From contig JAQWNP010000006.1 in assembly GCA_029268515.1 (NCBI GenBank), positions 124,001 to 188,000 of the forward strand: a DNA stretch of 64,000 bases. The letters run 5' to 3'. This DNA comes from Phycisphaerales bacterium (GTDB lineage Bacteria; Planctomycetota; Phycisphaerae; Phycisphaerales; SM1A02). The notes below the pieces were generated by a model. The model made no database searches, had not been told where the DNA came from, and was given only the letters and a program-made list of their open reading frames with translations. The translations under genes were made by a program, and so were the position numbers. Every line of letters begins with the position of its first letter. Positions within the stretch are counted from its first letter, which is position 1. Positions 5,700-9,671 of this stretch are shown piece after piece.

Positions 5700-5765
5700 C
5701 TTTCCAGTGGCCAATCAGAGACGGTTTAACATCAATGCTAGGCGCTACTGCTTAGAAAGCCATTC

Positions 5766-6719
5766 TTACTTTCGCCATTGGCGGTGGCAGTTGATGCACG
5801 ACTGTTCAACACGGAGCAGGTGTTGATTGAGATCCATGATCTTTCGATTCTTGTCATTCAGCGCCGTTTCTAAAGTCGAAGCACTTTGCAACGCCTCACG
5901 TACTTGGTTCATGAACGACTCTTCTTTTTGAAAAGACGCGTCTTGATCGAACTGCATTGCACGAAATGTTTCTGCAATCATGCCCGCATCAGCGGCAGGC
6001 GCGAGGTCGGGATGTGTGTCAGGAACCTCCCAGTTCGATTCCTGAATAAGCAAGAGCCGATCAAGGGCTTCATCAATCTGAACCATCTGAGCGGTCATCC
6101 CTTCTGGCCGGACGACTGAAGGAAGGTCTCTGCTTTGGGCCATCAAGGCACTCTGATCAAGTGCCTGTTGCTGCTCAACTGCATCCCACAAACCTGTGTA
6201 CTGCCGTGACGTCTCAGACACCTGCATTCTTTGTTGCATTGCATCTGCTTCTGATAAGTTCAGTGCAATCAACGCCAGTGCTGCTGCGGCTGCTGAACGA
6301 TGTCGACCGTGATGACAGTGAATGTAGACATTGCCTCGCTCTCTGTTGATCGCCACTGCGGCTGCAAGATCTGCAATCTGCGCCTGACTTGGCGCGTGAT
6401 ACTTCAGTGGTATGTGAATAGTCTCAATACCAAGTTTGCGTGCTTGTTCGACATCTGGTGCCACACCGTCAACACAGACAATCGTGGTAACCTCTAATTG
6501 TGCCAAGGAACGCATTCCTGCGACTCCTTGAGGCCGGGCGCCTGACAGAACACCATCTTGAAAAGCCACAATCTGTTCAAGCCCTGGCAAGCAAACTGGG
6601 CTTGTCGATTCTGTCGAAACCACCACGGTGCTATTGCCTTGAACCAAAGCGGAGTGCTCCCTGGCGTGACAACCAGCGATCAAAGACCCCAAGACAAGAA
6701 GTGTGCAAAATCGAATCAC
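5766..6719 (-). CDS. Lipoprotein with tyrosine-phosphatase-like domain and C-terminal heme c motif
   Basis: The 317-residue protein begins with a lipoprotein signal (LIAGC, lipid-attachment Cys17), so it should be anchored outside the cytoplasmic membrane. Residues about 45-185 resemble dual-specificity or PTP-like phosphatases: VYIHCHHGRHRS contains the CX5R signature with nucleophile Cys135 and Arg141. After a linker, residues about 205-317 are helical and end in CINCH (308-312), a CXXCH heme c attachment site placed close to the C-terminus, as in cytochrome c'-type four-helix proteins. The combination of phosphatase and heme domains in one exported lipoprotein is unusual. I know no established function for it; redox-controlled phosphatase activity is only a guess. 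It sits downstream of the cupin gene on the same strand. Confidence 0.8.
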   Translation of the reverse strand: MIRFCTLLVLGSLIAGCHAREHSALVQGNSTVVVSTESTSPVCLPGLEQIVAFQDGVLSGARPQGVAGMRSLAQLEVTTIVCVDGVAPDVEQARKLGIETIHIPLKYHAPSQAQIADLAAAVAINRERGNVYIHCHHGRHRSAAAAALALIALNLSEADAMQQRMQVSETSRQYTGLWDAVEQQQALDQSALMAQSRDLPSVVRPEGMTAQMVQIDEALDRLLLIQESNWEVPDTHPDLAPAADAGMIAETFRAMQFDQDASFQKEESFMNQVREALQSASTLETALNDKNRKIMDLNQHLLRVEQSCINCHRQWRK

Positions 6720-6737
6720 AGTGGTTCTATTCTATTT

Positions 6738-7115
6738 TTACGGCTCTTGATTCTCACCGATCCAAGTTCCCGTCGTACTTCGTTCGGTCTTCTCACCGTC
6801 ACCGGTATTGACGACACCGGCTGGCTCAAACAAAAGCACAGAGCACTCCTGTTCGGCGACTGGTCGATGCTCAACACCGCGCGGCACCACGATCATTTGC
6901 CCTTCGTTGAGTTCGACGCTGCGATCACGGAACTCCATCGTAAAAGACCCGCTCAACACCAAGAACATTTCATCTTCATCTGCGTGCTGATGCCACTGAA
7001 AGGCGCCAATGAACTTGGCTAGCTTCACTTCTTGCCCATTGAGCTGGGCCACAATCCGCGGTGACCAGTGATCACTGAACAAGGCTAATTTTTCTTGGAG
7101 ATCAATCTTGTCCAT
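6738..7115 (-). CDS. Single-domain cupin protein
   Basis: This is a small cupin-fold protein of 125 residues from ATG 7115; an in-frame GTG at 7127 would add four residues. The conserved cupin motifs are visible. WHQHADEDEMFLVLSG fits motif 1 (HxHxxxxEx6G), supplying two His and one Glu metal ligands. Motif 2 is PRGVEHRP, with the third His. Such proteins can be sugar isomerases, dioxygenases or binding proteins, and nothing here picks one. The ATG region and the 21 bases upstream of it are duplicated at 8697-8743, where the ancestral start would have overlapped the end of the YD-repeat gene by 14 bases. The 1.6 kb insertion has therefore separated it from its former upstream partner. Confidence 0.85.
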   Translation of the reverse strand: MDKIDLQEKLALFSDHWSPRIVAQLNGQEVKLAKFIGAFQWHQHADEDEMFLVLSGSFTMEFRDRSVELNEGQMIVVPRGVEHRPVAEQECSVLLFEPAGVVNTGDGEKTERSTTGTWIGENQEP

Positions 7116-7136
7116 ACTCAAACTCACGGAAGGTGA
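7090..7136. repeat. 47-bp perfect direct repeat, left copy
   Basis: This copy is identical base for base to 8697-8743 (offset 1607). It spans the first codons of the cupin gene and 21 bases upstream of its ATG. Beyond both ends the similarity stops abruptly, apart from chance A/T runs. It is far longer than normal transposon target duplications. Confidence 0.93.
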
Positions 7137-7185
7137 AAAAATGCGGTTTTCAGGCTAACCTCGCGATCGACGGTTATGCTGCTGA

Positions 7186-7212
7186 CTAACAGGCACTTAT
7201 TATGCCTGTTAG
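7186..7212 (+). promoter_or_regulatory. 10-bp perfect hairpin upstream of the HNH gene
   Basis: CTAACAGGCA at 7186-7195 is exactly complementary to TGCCTGTTAG at 7203-7212, with the 7-base loop CTTATTA. It lies 44 bases before the HNH gene's ATG. It could be an operator, an RNA leader hairpin or an element end. It lacks the T-run of an intrinsic terminator. Confidence 0.5.
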
Positions 7213-7256
7213 ATGAGGCATGGCAACTTACTGTACCAAGAGTAAGGAATAGTCTG

Positions 7257-8657
7257 ATGAAACAGAAGAAACCTGGAGTACTCAAAAACCTAAAACAAAC
7301 ATTTAATAGTCTCGTTGACCTCAAGAGTGATCCGGGAATCAATGCAGGGGCATCAACTATTGAATCTTTTATTCGACAGCAACAACATTCCTTTGACTGG
7401 AATGCCGCATGCAAACAGTTAGGGGCCCGCAAGGCAGAACACACCGTACTTGCACATATTGTCTACGAGCGTGCAGTCGATCGAGTTTGGAAAGATGGCG
7501 TATTAGCCTCAAATGAAAGAGACTACCTATCATGGCTAGAGTCGCGCATACCAATACCTGCCGAAGATTGTCGATTGATTAGGGAAGAAAAACTAACAAG
7601 TTTATTTACATTTGTACTGCGTAAAACACTTGAAGATGGTCAAGTCAGCCTCAAAGAAAGAAACCTTTTAGCTGGCATTTCTTCCGCTATGAATCAAGAT
7701 CTTGGCGCACTGGTCAAAAAACATCTACAAACAAATGGAGCTGATGTTTTTGAGCACCCACTTGACAAACTAATTCAACAATCATCAAATCGCATTGTTG
7801 ACTTAGAACAAAGTTGGCGAGAAATAGAGAACACCGCAATCTCGCTCGGAATTGATTCTGCTTCTCTTAGGTCTATTGCAGAGCCTTATGGCGAAAAGTT
7901 ACTAGAACACATCATTATTGATGCGAAAGCCGACGATAAACTTTCGATGCATGAAGAAGATTGCATCAATTGGGTTCTTGATACATTTTCACTTAGCTCC
8001 ACCATGCGCGGTTATGCGACTACAGCTATCGATGAGCTAACGACTATATCTCAGATAGTAGATGGAATACTGCCCTCAATACCGCGGGAAGATATAACTG
8101 AAGATGAGGATATTGAATTCAATCCTTCGGAAGTCGTTCATGCCCACTTTGAGTGCACGATGCATCACCATAGAAAGCTTAAGTCCGGACCTCGAACCAA
8201 TGAATACAACGGCTCAGCGTTTGTCACCGACAGGCGTTTGATCTTTTACTCTTGGGAGGACGACATCCAAAAAGTTATTTCGTTGAGAAGCGTTCTGCGA
8301 TTCTCTAAGCACCAAAATGGTTTCACATTTGGAGAGAATCATGGCTCTAGAAGGTTCTATATTCACGAGCAAATCGAGATATTAAAGCAAGTAGTTCAAA
8401 TGGCCATCCATCTAGCTAAAGGCCGAGTACCTCAGGCTATTCAAGATGATCTAGTAACGAGACCCACACGCCACATCTCCAATGATGTAAGGCAACGTAT
8501 ATGGACAGACTATGGTGGAAAGTGTGCCGATTGCTCCTCTACACACTACCTGGAATTTGATCACATCATTCCTTTTTCCAAAGGGGGCAGCAGTGAATTG
8601 CAGAATATTCAGTTGTTATGCAGAGGATGCAACCTAAAAAAATCTAACAACATCTAA
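7257..8657 (+). CDS. HNH endonuclease with TerB-like and PH-like domains
   Basis: The chosen start is ATG 7257 because AAGGA lies eight to twelve bases before it; the frame is open further upstream. The product has 466 residues. Residues 412-466 form an HNH nuclease with CxxC at 423/426, catalytic Asp435-His436, Asn450 and CxxC at 455/458. Before it, near residues 290-385, a segment (AFVTDRRLIFYSW) resembles bacterial PH-like membrane or protein-binding domains. The N-terminal half is helical, with acidic short repeats such as WKDGVLASNERDYL, LEDGQVSLKERNLL and KADDKLSMHEEDCI, like TerB-type domains. There is no signal peptide or membrane span. The domain mix and its lone insertion suggest a defence or homing cargo. 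That is inference. Confidence 0.8.
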   Translation: MKQKKPGVLKNLKQTFNSLVDLKSDPGINAGASTIESFIRQQQHSFDWNAACKQLGARKAEHTVLAHIVYERAVDRVWKDGVLASNERDYLSWLESRIPIPAEDCRLIREEKLTSLFTFVLRKTLEDGQVSLKERNLLAGISSAMNQDLGALVKKHLQTNGADVFEHPLDKLIQQSSNRIVDLEQSWREIENTAISLGIDSASLRSIAEPYGEKLLEHIIIDAKADDKLSMHEEDCINWVLDTFSLSSTMRGYATTAIDELTTISQIVDGILPSIPREDITEDEDIEFNPSEVVHAHFECTMHHHRKLKSGPRTNEYNGSAFVTDRRLIFYSWEDDIQKVISLRSVLRFSKHQNGFTFGENHGSRRFYIHEQIEILKQVVQMAIHLAKGRVPQAIQDDLVTRPTRHISNDVRQRIWTDYGGKCADCSSTHYLEFDHIIPFSKGGSSELQNIQLLCRGCNLKKSNNI

Positions 8658-8696
8658 TACTTACACTGATATTCTTACCGCCTGCTCTCGGAAAAA

Positions 8697-8743
8697 TTTT
8701 CTTGGAGATCAATCTTGTCCATACTCAAACTCACGGAAGGTGA
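8697..8743. repeat. 47-bp perfect direct repeat, right copy
   Basis: This copy contains the last codons and stop of the YD-repeat gene (EYGQD, TGA at 8709-8711). It also contains a second, now headless copy of the cupin start (ATG read from 8722). It is probably the ancestral junction. Confidence 0.93.
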
Positions 8744-9671
8744 TGACCTCTTCCTGCCCAATCTGATTTGAAACATCACTTTTGTCTGTGATCTGTGTCA
8801 GTGCTGTTCGCTTGACCCAGTTACCTGCTTCATCCAGTTCGTAGGTATAGGCCGTGTGCGTCGCTTTCTCACCTTCATCTCGATGATACGTCTGAGGTCG
8901 CCCCAGCTGATCGTAGGTCCACGTTTCCGAACGGAGCAATTTGTCTGAACCGTCAAGCACCTTAAGCATCAGCATACGTCCATCATCGTCGTACATTGCT
9001 TGTGAACGGCCCGTCACTTCTTGCGCCGCGTCATACCAAATTGATGCCAGAGCTTGGCCATCTTGATTCATTCGCTCGACTTTAATCAACACCGGTTCAT
9101 CTGCATCACTTACAAAAGACATGACCCGCCAGCCACCGTCTTCCTCTGGCATCATTCGTTTTGCGATCGCAACCTCTTCATCACGATTACGCATCAACAC
9201 CATTTCTGTATCACCGCTTGAGCTGTATTGTGTGCGACGTGTCTGGCGCTGCCCTTCAATATTCGTATAGACCTGACGGACAAGTCGGCCTTCTTTGTCA
9301 TATTGAAATTCGGCTCTTTGTGGAGGCGTGTCTTCCTGCTCAAAAGACAGGTATTCAATCATTCGTCCTTCATCGTCATAGCCATAGACGTACGAATCAT
9401 TAACTTTGTTAAAGGTATACGTGGTCACCATTGCAAGCCGCCCCTGATCATCGAAGCGCAAGATGCGCTCCACATGTGGCCTTGCGAATCGAGCAGGCAA
9501 CGGCAGCGATGAACTGGAGATCGCAACACTCTCACGCATCGTTAAGACTGGGCCCAAAATGTGCAACGCCTCTCTTGTTTGAGCCGTTGGTGACAAATCG
9601 AATACAGGAGACACCTGCGCCAAAAGCGGTGCGATGCTGAGGGTCATAATGGCGGCTGTGAGTTGAATCAT
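8709..9671 (-). CDS. Secreted YD/RHS-repeat-like protein
   Basis: This 320-residue protein has an N-terminal hydrophobic signal (ending near LLAQ, residue 19). The rest is built of short beta-hairpin repeats typical of YD or RHS repeat proteins: RFDDQGRLAMVT, YGYDDEGRMIEY, FQYDKEGRLVRQ, MYDDDGRMLML, TWTYDQLGRPQTY and YELDEAGNWVKR. Full RHS toxins are much larger and carry a toxin tail; this one ends cleanly after the repeats, so it is more likely a small exported or periplasmic beta-structured protein. Its stop codon lies inside the right-hand 47-bp repeat. No function can be assigned. Confidence 0.8.
   Translation of the reverse strand: MIQLTAAIMTLSIAPLLAQVSPVFDLSPTAQTREALHILGPVLTMRESVAISSSSLPLPARFARPHVERILRFDDQGRLAMVTTYTFNKVNDSYVYGYDDEGRMIEYLSFEQEDTPPQRAEFQYDKEGRLVRQVYTNIEGQRQTRRTQYSSSGDTEMVLMRNRDEEVAIAKRMMPEEDGGWRVMSFVSDADEPVLIKVERMNQDGQALASIWYDAAQEVTGRSQAMYDDDGRMLMLKVLDGSDKLLRSETWTYDQLGRPQTYHRDEGEKATHTAYTYELDEAGNWVKRTALTQITDKSDVSNQIGQEEVITFREFEYGQD

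Follow-up and report, generated by a model that had tools for sequence, protein, structure and literature searches.

Long target duplication around a foreign HNH-nuclease gene inserted, most probably by a cargo-independent process, in a Phycisphaerales genome

A foreign 1560-bp segment holding one predicted nuclease gene was most probably inserted where two co-directional genes of a Phycisphaerales bacterium overlap, with duplication of 47 bp, by a process that does not depend on the cargo; we place the probability of this reading at about 0.7. It is carried by the repeat itself, an empty site in a related genome, the foreign composition of the segment and a second case in the same genome.

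The window analysed is the 64,000-nt stretch from position 124,001 to 188,000 of the forward strand of contig JAQWNP010000006.1 (GCA_029268515.1), and positions below are window-based unless prefixed. The source genome (G000) is a draft assembly of 3.2 Mb, 99.5% complete. The sole comparison genome from the same genus (G001) is 89% complete and comprises 540 contigs.

The repeat, the empty site and the inserted segment

The locus comprises the following features.

6738..7127, minus strand: cupin gene, left flank, intact (Cupin_2 7.3e-13; G001 orthologue 97% identical)
7090..7136: left 47-bp copy of the target duplication, containing the cupin gene start; exact match to 8697-8743
7137..8696: inserted foreign segment, 1560 bp, absent from G001; G+C 0.424 vs 0.496 for the window
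~7186..7212, plus strand: hairpin with a 10-bp stem upstream of the HNH gene, from fold analysis
7257..8657, plus strand: gene for a 466-aa TerB-like/GRAM(PH)/HNH protein (HNH 1.5e-11, GRAM 1.2e-6, TerB 0.027)
8697..8743: right 47-bp copy of the target duplication, containing the YD-repeat gene end and a headless cupin start
8709..9671, minus strand: YD/RHS-repeat-like gene, right flank, intact (RHS_repeat 4e-4, under the curated cut-off; G001 orthologue 71% identical)

The two copies, 7090-7136 and 8697-8743, are identical and spaced by 1607, as the sequence-only reading of this DNA had stated, and the match extends to 49 of 50 bases when one mismatch is allowed. Within the 64-kb window this is the only direct repeat of at least 25 bp whose copies lie within 15 kb of each other. 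No further copy was found in the 3.2-Mb genome with up to three mismatches allowed, so that the concern that the repeat might be a common dispersed one is answered by its uniqueness. Both flanking genes are whole because the YD-repeat gene takes its end from the right copy and the cupin gene its start from the left one; the gene coordinates agree with the earlier description of the two copies in this respect. Removal of one unit leaves the YD-repeat and cupin genes overlapping by 26 nt (GTG start at 7127) or 14 nt (ATG start at 7115), and the natural overlap that had been predicted from this operation is the arrangement seen in G001.

A G001 contig aligns to window positions 5763-7136 and again from 8695, with the repeat as the stretch of the contig that both alignments cover. 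At this site G001 contains one repeat copy (44 of 47 bases alike), no insert, and overlapping YD-repeat and cupin genes. The single overlapping copy therefore matches the prediction of insertion with target duplication, and the comparison of this junction in a related genome, proposed to see whether the 1.6-kb segment is carried there as well, found it absent. The exact empty site, the non-dispersed repeat and the foreign composition together support an insertion with target duplication at 7090-8743.

The inserted segment is essentially the most A+T-rich stretch of its length within the window, and its trinucleotide make-up is among the most deviant 0.2% there; a base-composition test against the surroundings, also proposed beforehand, hence gave a foreign make-up. 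The HNH gene is the only gene between the repeats, and neither a transposase nor an integrase was found there. The initial description of the cargo as a single gene with TerB-like, PH-like and HNH domains, accompanied by a 10-bp hairpin, holds, with the TerB match of the window protein itself reaching only 0.027. The stretch upstream of the gene (7137-7256) folds better than shuffled sequence (z -3.35), and an Rfam search returned nothing of note. A promoter-like match on the minus strand at 7199-7226, inside the insert, faces the cupin gene that the insertion has set apart; shuffled sequence gives matches of this kind at least as often.

Two classes of small mobile DNA were considered and rejected. 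DNA transposons and MITEs have terminal inverted repeats and target duplications of 2-14 bp; here the longest terminal inverted match is 5 bp and the duplication is 47 bp, in keeping with the earlier remark that such a duplication is too long for standard transposition. The upstream hairpin resembles an integron attC core by eye, but the 3' end (8640-8720) lacks the stable hairpin of a gene cassette.

The TerB-GRAM-HNH protein and its relatives

The HNH and GRAM matches of the window protein exceed the cut-off, and the HNH domain is C-terminal. TerB is significant in 13 of 18 relatives (best 6.8e-15). TerB-like helices, a GRAM/PH domain and a C-terminal HNH domain are therefore combined in one protein, as is characteristic of the TerB-GRAM-HNH family. 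A structure model built from 18 relatives (mean pLDDT 81.8) predicts that the first half is helical and that residues 294-369 form a β-rich domain; the C-terminal HNH region is modelled with lower confidence. Among solved structures, the middle part comes closest to PH-type domains, for example the Vps36 PH domain with a TM-score of 0.65 by the target's length. Matches of the whole chain to helical-plus-PH proteins yielded poor superpositions.

Full-length relatives are sparse, scattered and mostly planctomycete, and 80 genomes from the same family and order yielded none. The C-terminal part also has relatives, some of them carrying a TerD annotation, in Deinococcus, Nocardia and Acinetobacter. 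These TerD-TerB-GRAM-HNH proteins share the C-terminal TerB-like, GRAM and HNH portion with the window protein, whereas the latter has no TerD domain by sequence and its N-terminal half is helical and TerB-like. The Deinococcus genes are plasmid-borne, and one has further TerD genes next to it. A search against known anti-phage defence families gave no full-length match; the PADLOC matches were weak (best 5.1e-5) and reached no further than the HNH domain or a section of the helical region. Judged from the company that the family keeps, a stress or defence role of the HNH protein is plausible.

As had been suggested as a check, the surroundings of relatives of the HNH gene were examined; around some 20 of them, complete or almost complete in length, no comparable long direct repeat was left unexplained. 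Two matches were rejected as target duplications: one of 243 bp at locus L064, which reflects a tandem SUMF1-like paralog that the gene splits, and one of 39 bp at locus L061, which is part of a palindromic repeat. In the former locus (L064:5663-7753), from another planctomycete, the relative of the HNH gene breaks into the tandem copy of the SUMF1-like gene. The long repeat is not a property of the HNH gene.

Other insertions in the same genome

About 1.78 Mb (56%) of the source genome was scanned, in stretches, for isolated direct repeats spanning whole genes. Paralogous genes, protein repeats and tRNAs were set aside, since their similarity extends further than the repeat or the repeat belongs to a familiar class. 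Four further cases are listed here by contig (C) or scanned locus (L).

C6:107109-113994 (L148:7109-13994): second insertion, outside the window on the same contig, ~17 kb before the window edge; 73-bp exact duplication
L194:4990-6272: likely insertion on C17; 65/65 bp repeat, one epimerase gene
L188:12361-14936: likely insertion on C11; 91/97 bp repeat, glycosyltransferase and deacetylase genes, between ligA and a TauE gene
L190:1784-2783: likely insertion on C13; 63/68 bp repeat, two small genes

In the second insertion, an exact 73-bp repeat (C6:107109-107181 and C6:113922-113994) surrounds 6740 bp with four genes. At the corresponding site G001 holds one copy (72 of 73 bases) and no insert. 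Its target lies where the convergent aminopeptidase P and UvrD-like helicase genes overlap end to end, and both genes are preserved. None of the four inserted genes could be assigned to a Pfam family or a PHROG, and the largest protein has no homolog in 80 relatives and no plasmid or viral relative. The left flank of this insertion (L148:5800-7181) is 97.6% identical to G001 and the right flank (L148:13922-15500) only ~76%, a contrast that hints at a recent exchange of the aminopeptidase P region.

The C17, C11 and C13 cases are likely insertions of the same form, an assignment made from their structure. The G001 contigs end before the C17 and C11 junctions, and G001 already has the start of the C13 insert. 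Each of the five repeats, that of the window included, contains the end of at least one flanking gene. The five targets have no more than 7 bp in common and differ in length, and neither a motif nor inverted repeats common to the insert ends were found among the five. The cargoes of the other inserts are an epimerase, a glycosyltransferase with a deacetylase, or orphan genes, with no nuclease recognised. Two more isolated repeat pairs (45/47 bp at L182:2051-5377 and 40/42 bp at L197:9664-12110) each surround a single large gene for an apparently secreted protein.

Control loci totalling 1.05 Mb contained no isolated gene-spanning repeat pair, and 400 kb each of genomes G010 and G058 gave only tRNA or protein-repeat matches. 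At the rate of five cases in ~1.78 Mb, finding none in the 0.8 Mb of contiguous control has a probability of ~0.1, the control being too small to call the lineage special. Long target duplication is probably, in part, a property of the genome.

Mode of insertion and its implications

Insertion with long target duplication is reportedly the subject of Nobusato et al. 2000 and Furuta et al. 2010. As portrayed in those portions of the literature that treat it, it emerged from the comparison of two Helicobacter pylori genomes, often involves restriction-modification genes, and comes in review with a figure for the duplications on the order of 100 bp (PMC1643837, PMC3874152, PMC3031569, PMC4978471). 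On the same accounts, a foreign and often A+T-rich gene lies between long direct repeats of variable length, without a transposase, and the empty site of a related genome holds a single copy. The window case fits this form in the structural features that were compared. Its flanking repeats are exact over 47 bp and unique in the genome, the G001 site is empty with exact boundaries, and the length of the duplication varies within the genome (47 and 73 bp where G001 shows the empty site; 65, 97 and 68 bp in the cases judged from structure). A restriction-modification cargo, which is frequent and not strictly defining, is absent, the gene being nuclease-like without a methyltransferase. Whereas the cases described in these sources concern mainly restriction-modification genes of Helicobacter pylori, the recipient here is a planctomycete, the cargo is a TerB-GRAM-HNH gene, and genes unrelated to restriction appear to have entered the same genome.

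The process is read as independent of the cargo because in the same genome unrelated genes occupy one more site that is demonstrably empty in G001 (73 bp) and three likely insertions (65-97 bp). The window case and the second case suggest that no nuclease is needed; a general cell process, and not the nuclease, probably did the inserting, and the nuclease gene is most likely its passenger. The route we infer from its product. Tentatively favoured is template switching at the replication fork, in which a nascent strand would exit the chromosome, copy incoming DNA and re-enter 47-97 bp behind the exit point. Somewhat less likely, opposite-strand nicks 47-97 bp apart would allow a fragment to be captured and the gaps then filled in. 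Such events probably persist at gene junctions because the duplication there repairs the damage. No Ku gene was found in the source genome (99.5% complete) or in G001, and Ku-dependent end joining is therefore unlikely.

The gene content of the insert invites an explanation by the nuclease itself, and the sequence-only reading had entertained a minimal homing or mobile unit spreading by means of its nuclease or the repeat. In such a unit the HNH protein would nick the target and move its own gene, leaving a long duplication. The cargo is indeed a single predicted nuclease, and restriction-modification genes are linked with such insertions in the parts of the literature that deal with them (PMC1643837, PMC3874152). 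However, no nuclease was recognised in the other inserts of this form in the genome, and some 20 relatives of the HNH gene have no comparable repeat. Homing endonuclease genes, moreover, occupy homologous sites, introns or inteins without target duplication; here G001 is empty, the relatives lie at unrelated places and a duplication is present. We consider this explanation quite improbable; of the earlier proposal, the insertion with target duplication stands and the self-spreading unit does not, given the unflanked relatives and the other cargoes elsewhere. Scarcely more probable is a small integrative element, with the 47 bp as its attachment core, where a 1.6-kb circle would have been integrated by a tyrosine or serine recombinase acting in trans. 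Attachment sites typically show identical repeats that complete a gene end, also in genomic islands integrated by a tyrosine recombinase at gene ends, and the repeat and the empty site are exact. Yet the insert has no recombinase gene, no attachment core is common to the five cases, the repeat length is specific to each site and the insert ends share nothing. The small overlap between targets (at most 7 bp), their different lengths and insert ends without motif or inverted repeats speak against either a transposase or one site-specific recombinase.

Two further explanations concern the comparison itself. The filled state could be the older one, with G001 having lost the insert through recombination between the repeats; a 47-bp repeat is able to mediate precise deletion, and the comparison involves a single genome. 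The insert still stands out in composition, however, and its two repeat copies have stayed identical, against 3 differences in 47 positions in G001, which makes a loss improbable. Since a loss would need an earlier insertion to create the repeat, it would change only the date. Very improbable is an assembly artefact, in which the chromosome would have been fused with a small circle or strain variant that has the same 47 bp. The assembly is a metagenome-type draft of many contigs, but a single k-mer effect does not explain the 73-bp case and the diverged ones (91/97, 63/68), the left junction of the C13 insert is also present in the independent G001 assembly, and the repeat coincides with functional gene ends. 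Insertion with target duplication by a cargo-independent process accordingly remains the preferred reading.

It is possible, though doubtful at present, that single genes and small operons, whatever their kind, enter this lineage through an undescribed process, free of integrase and Ku, that duplicates ~50-100 bp of target and has left several cases per megabase. Closed genomes can readily be searched for the signature, and the process is made testable by empty sites that are exact. Long target duplication has so far been discussed as a trait of restriction-modification genes; should one genome acquire unrelated genes in this way, the cause would lie in the DNA repair or replication of the recipient and not in the cargo.
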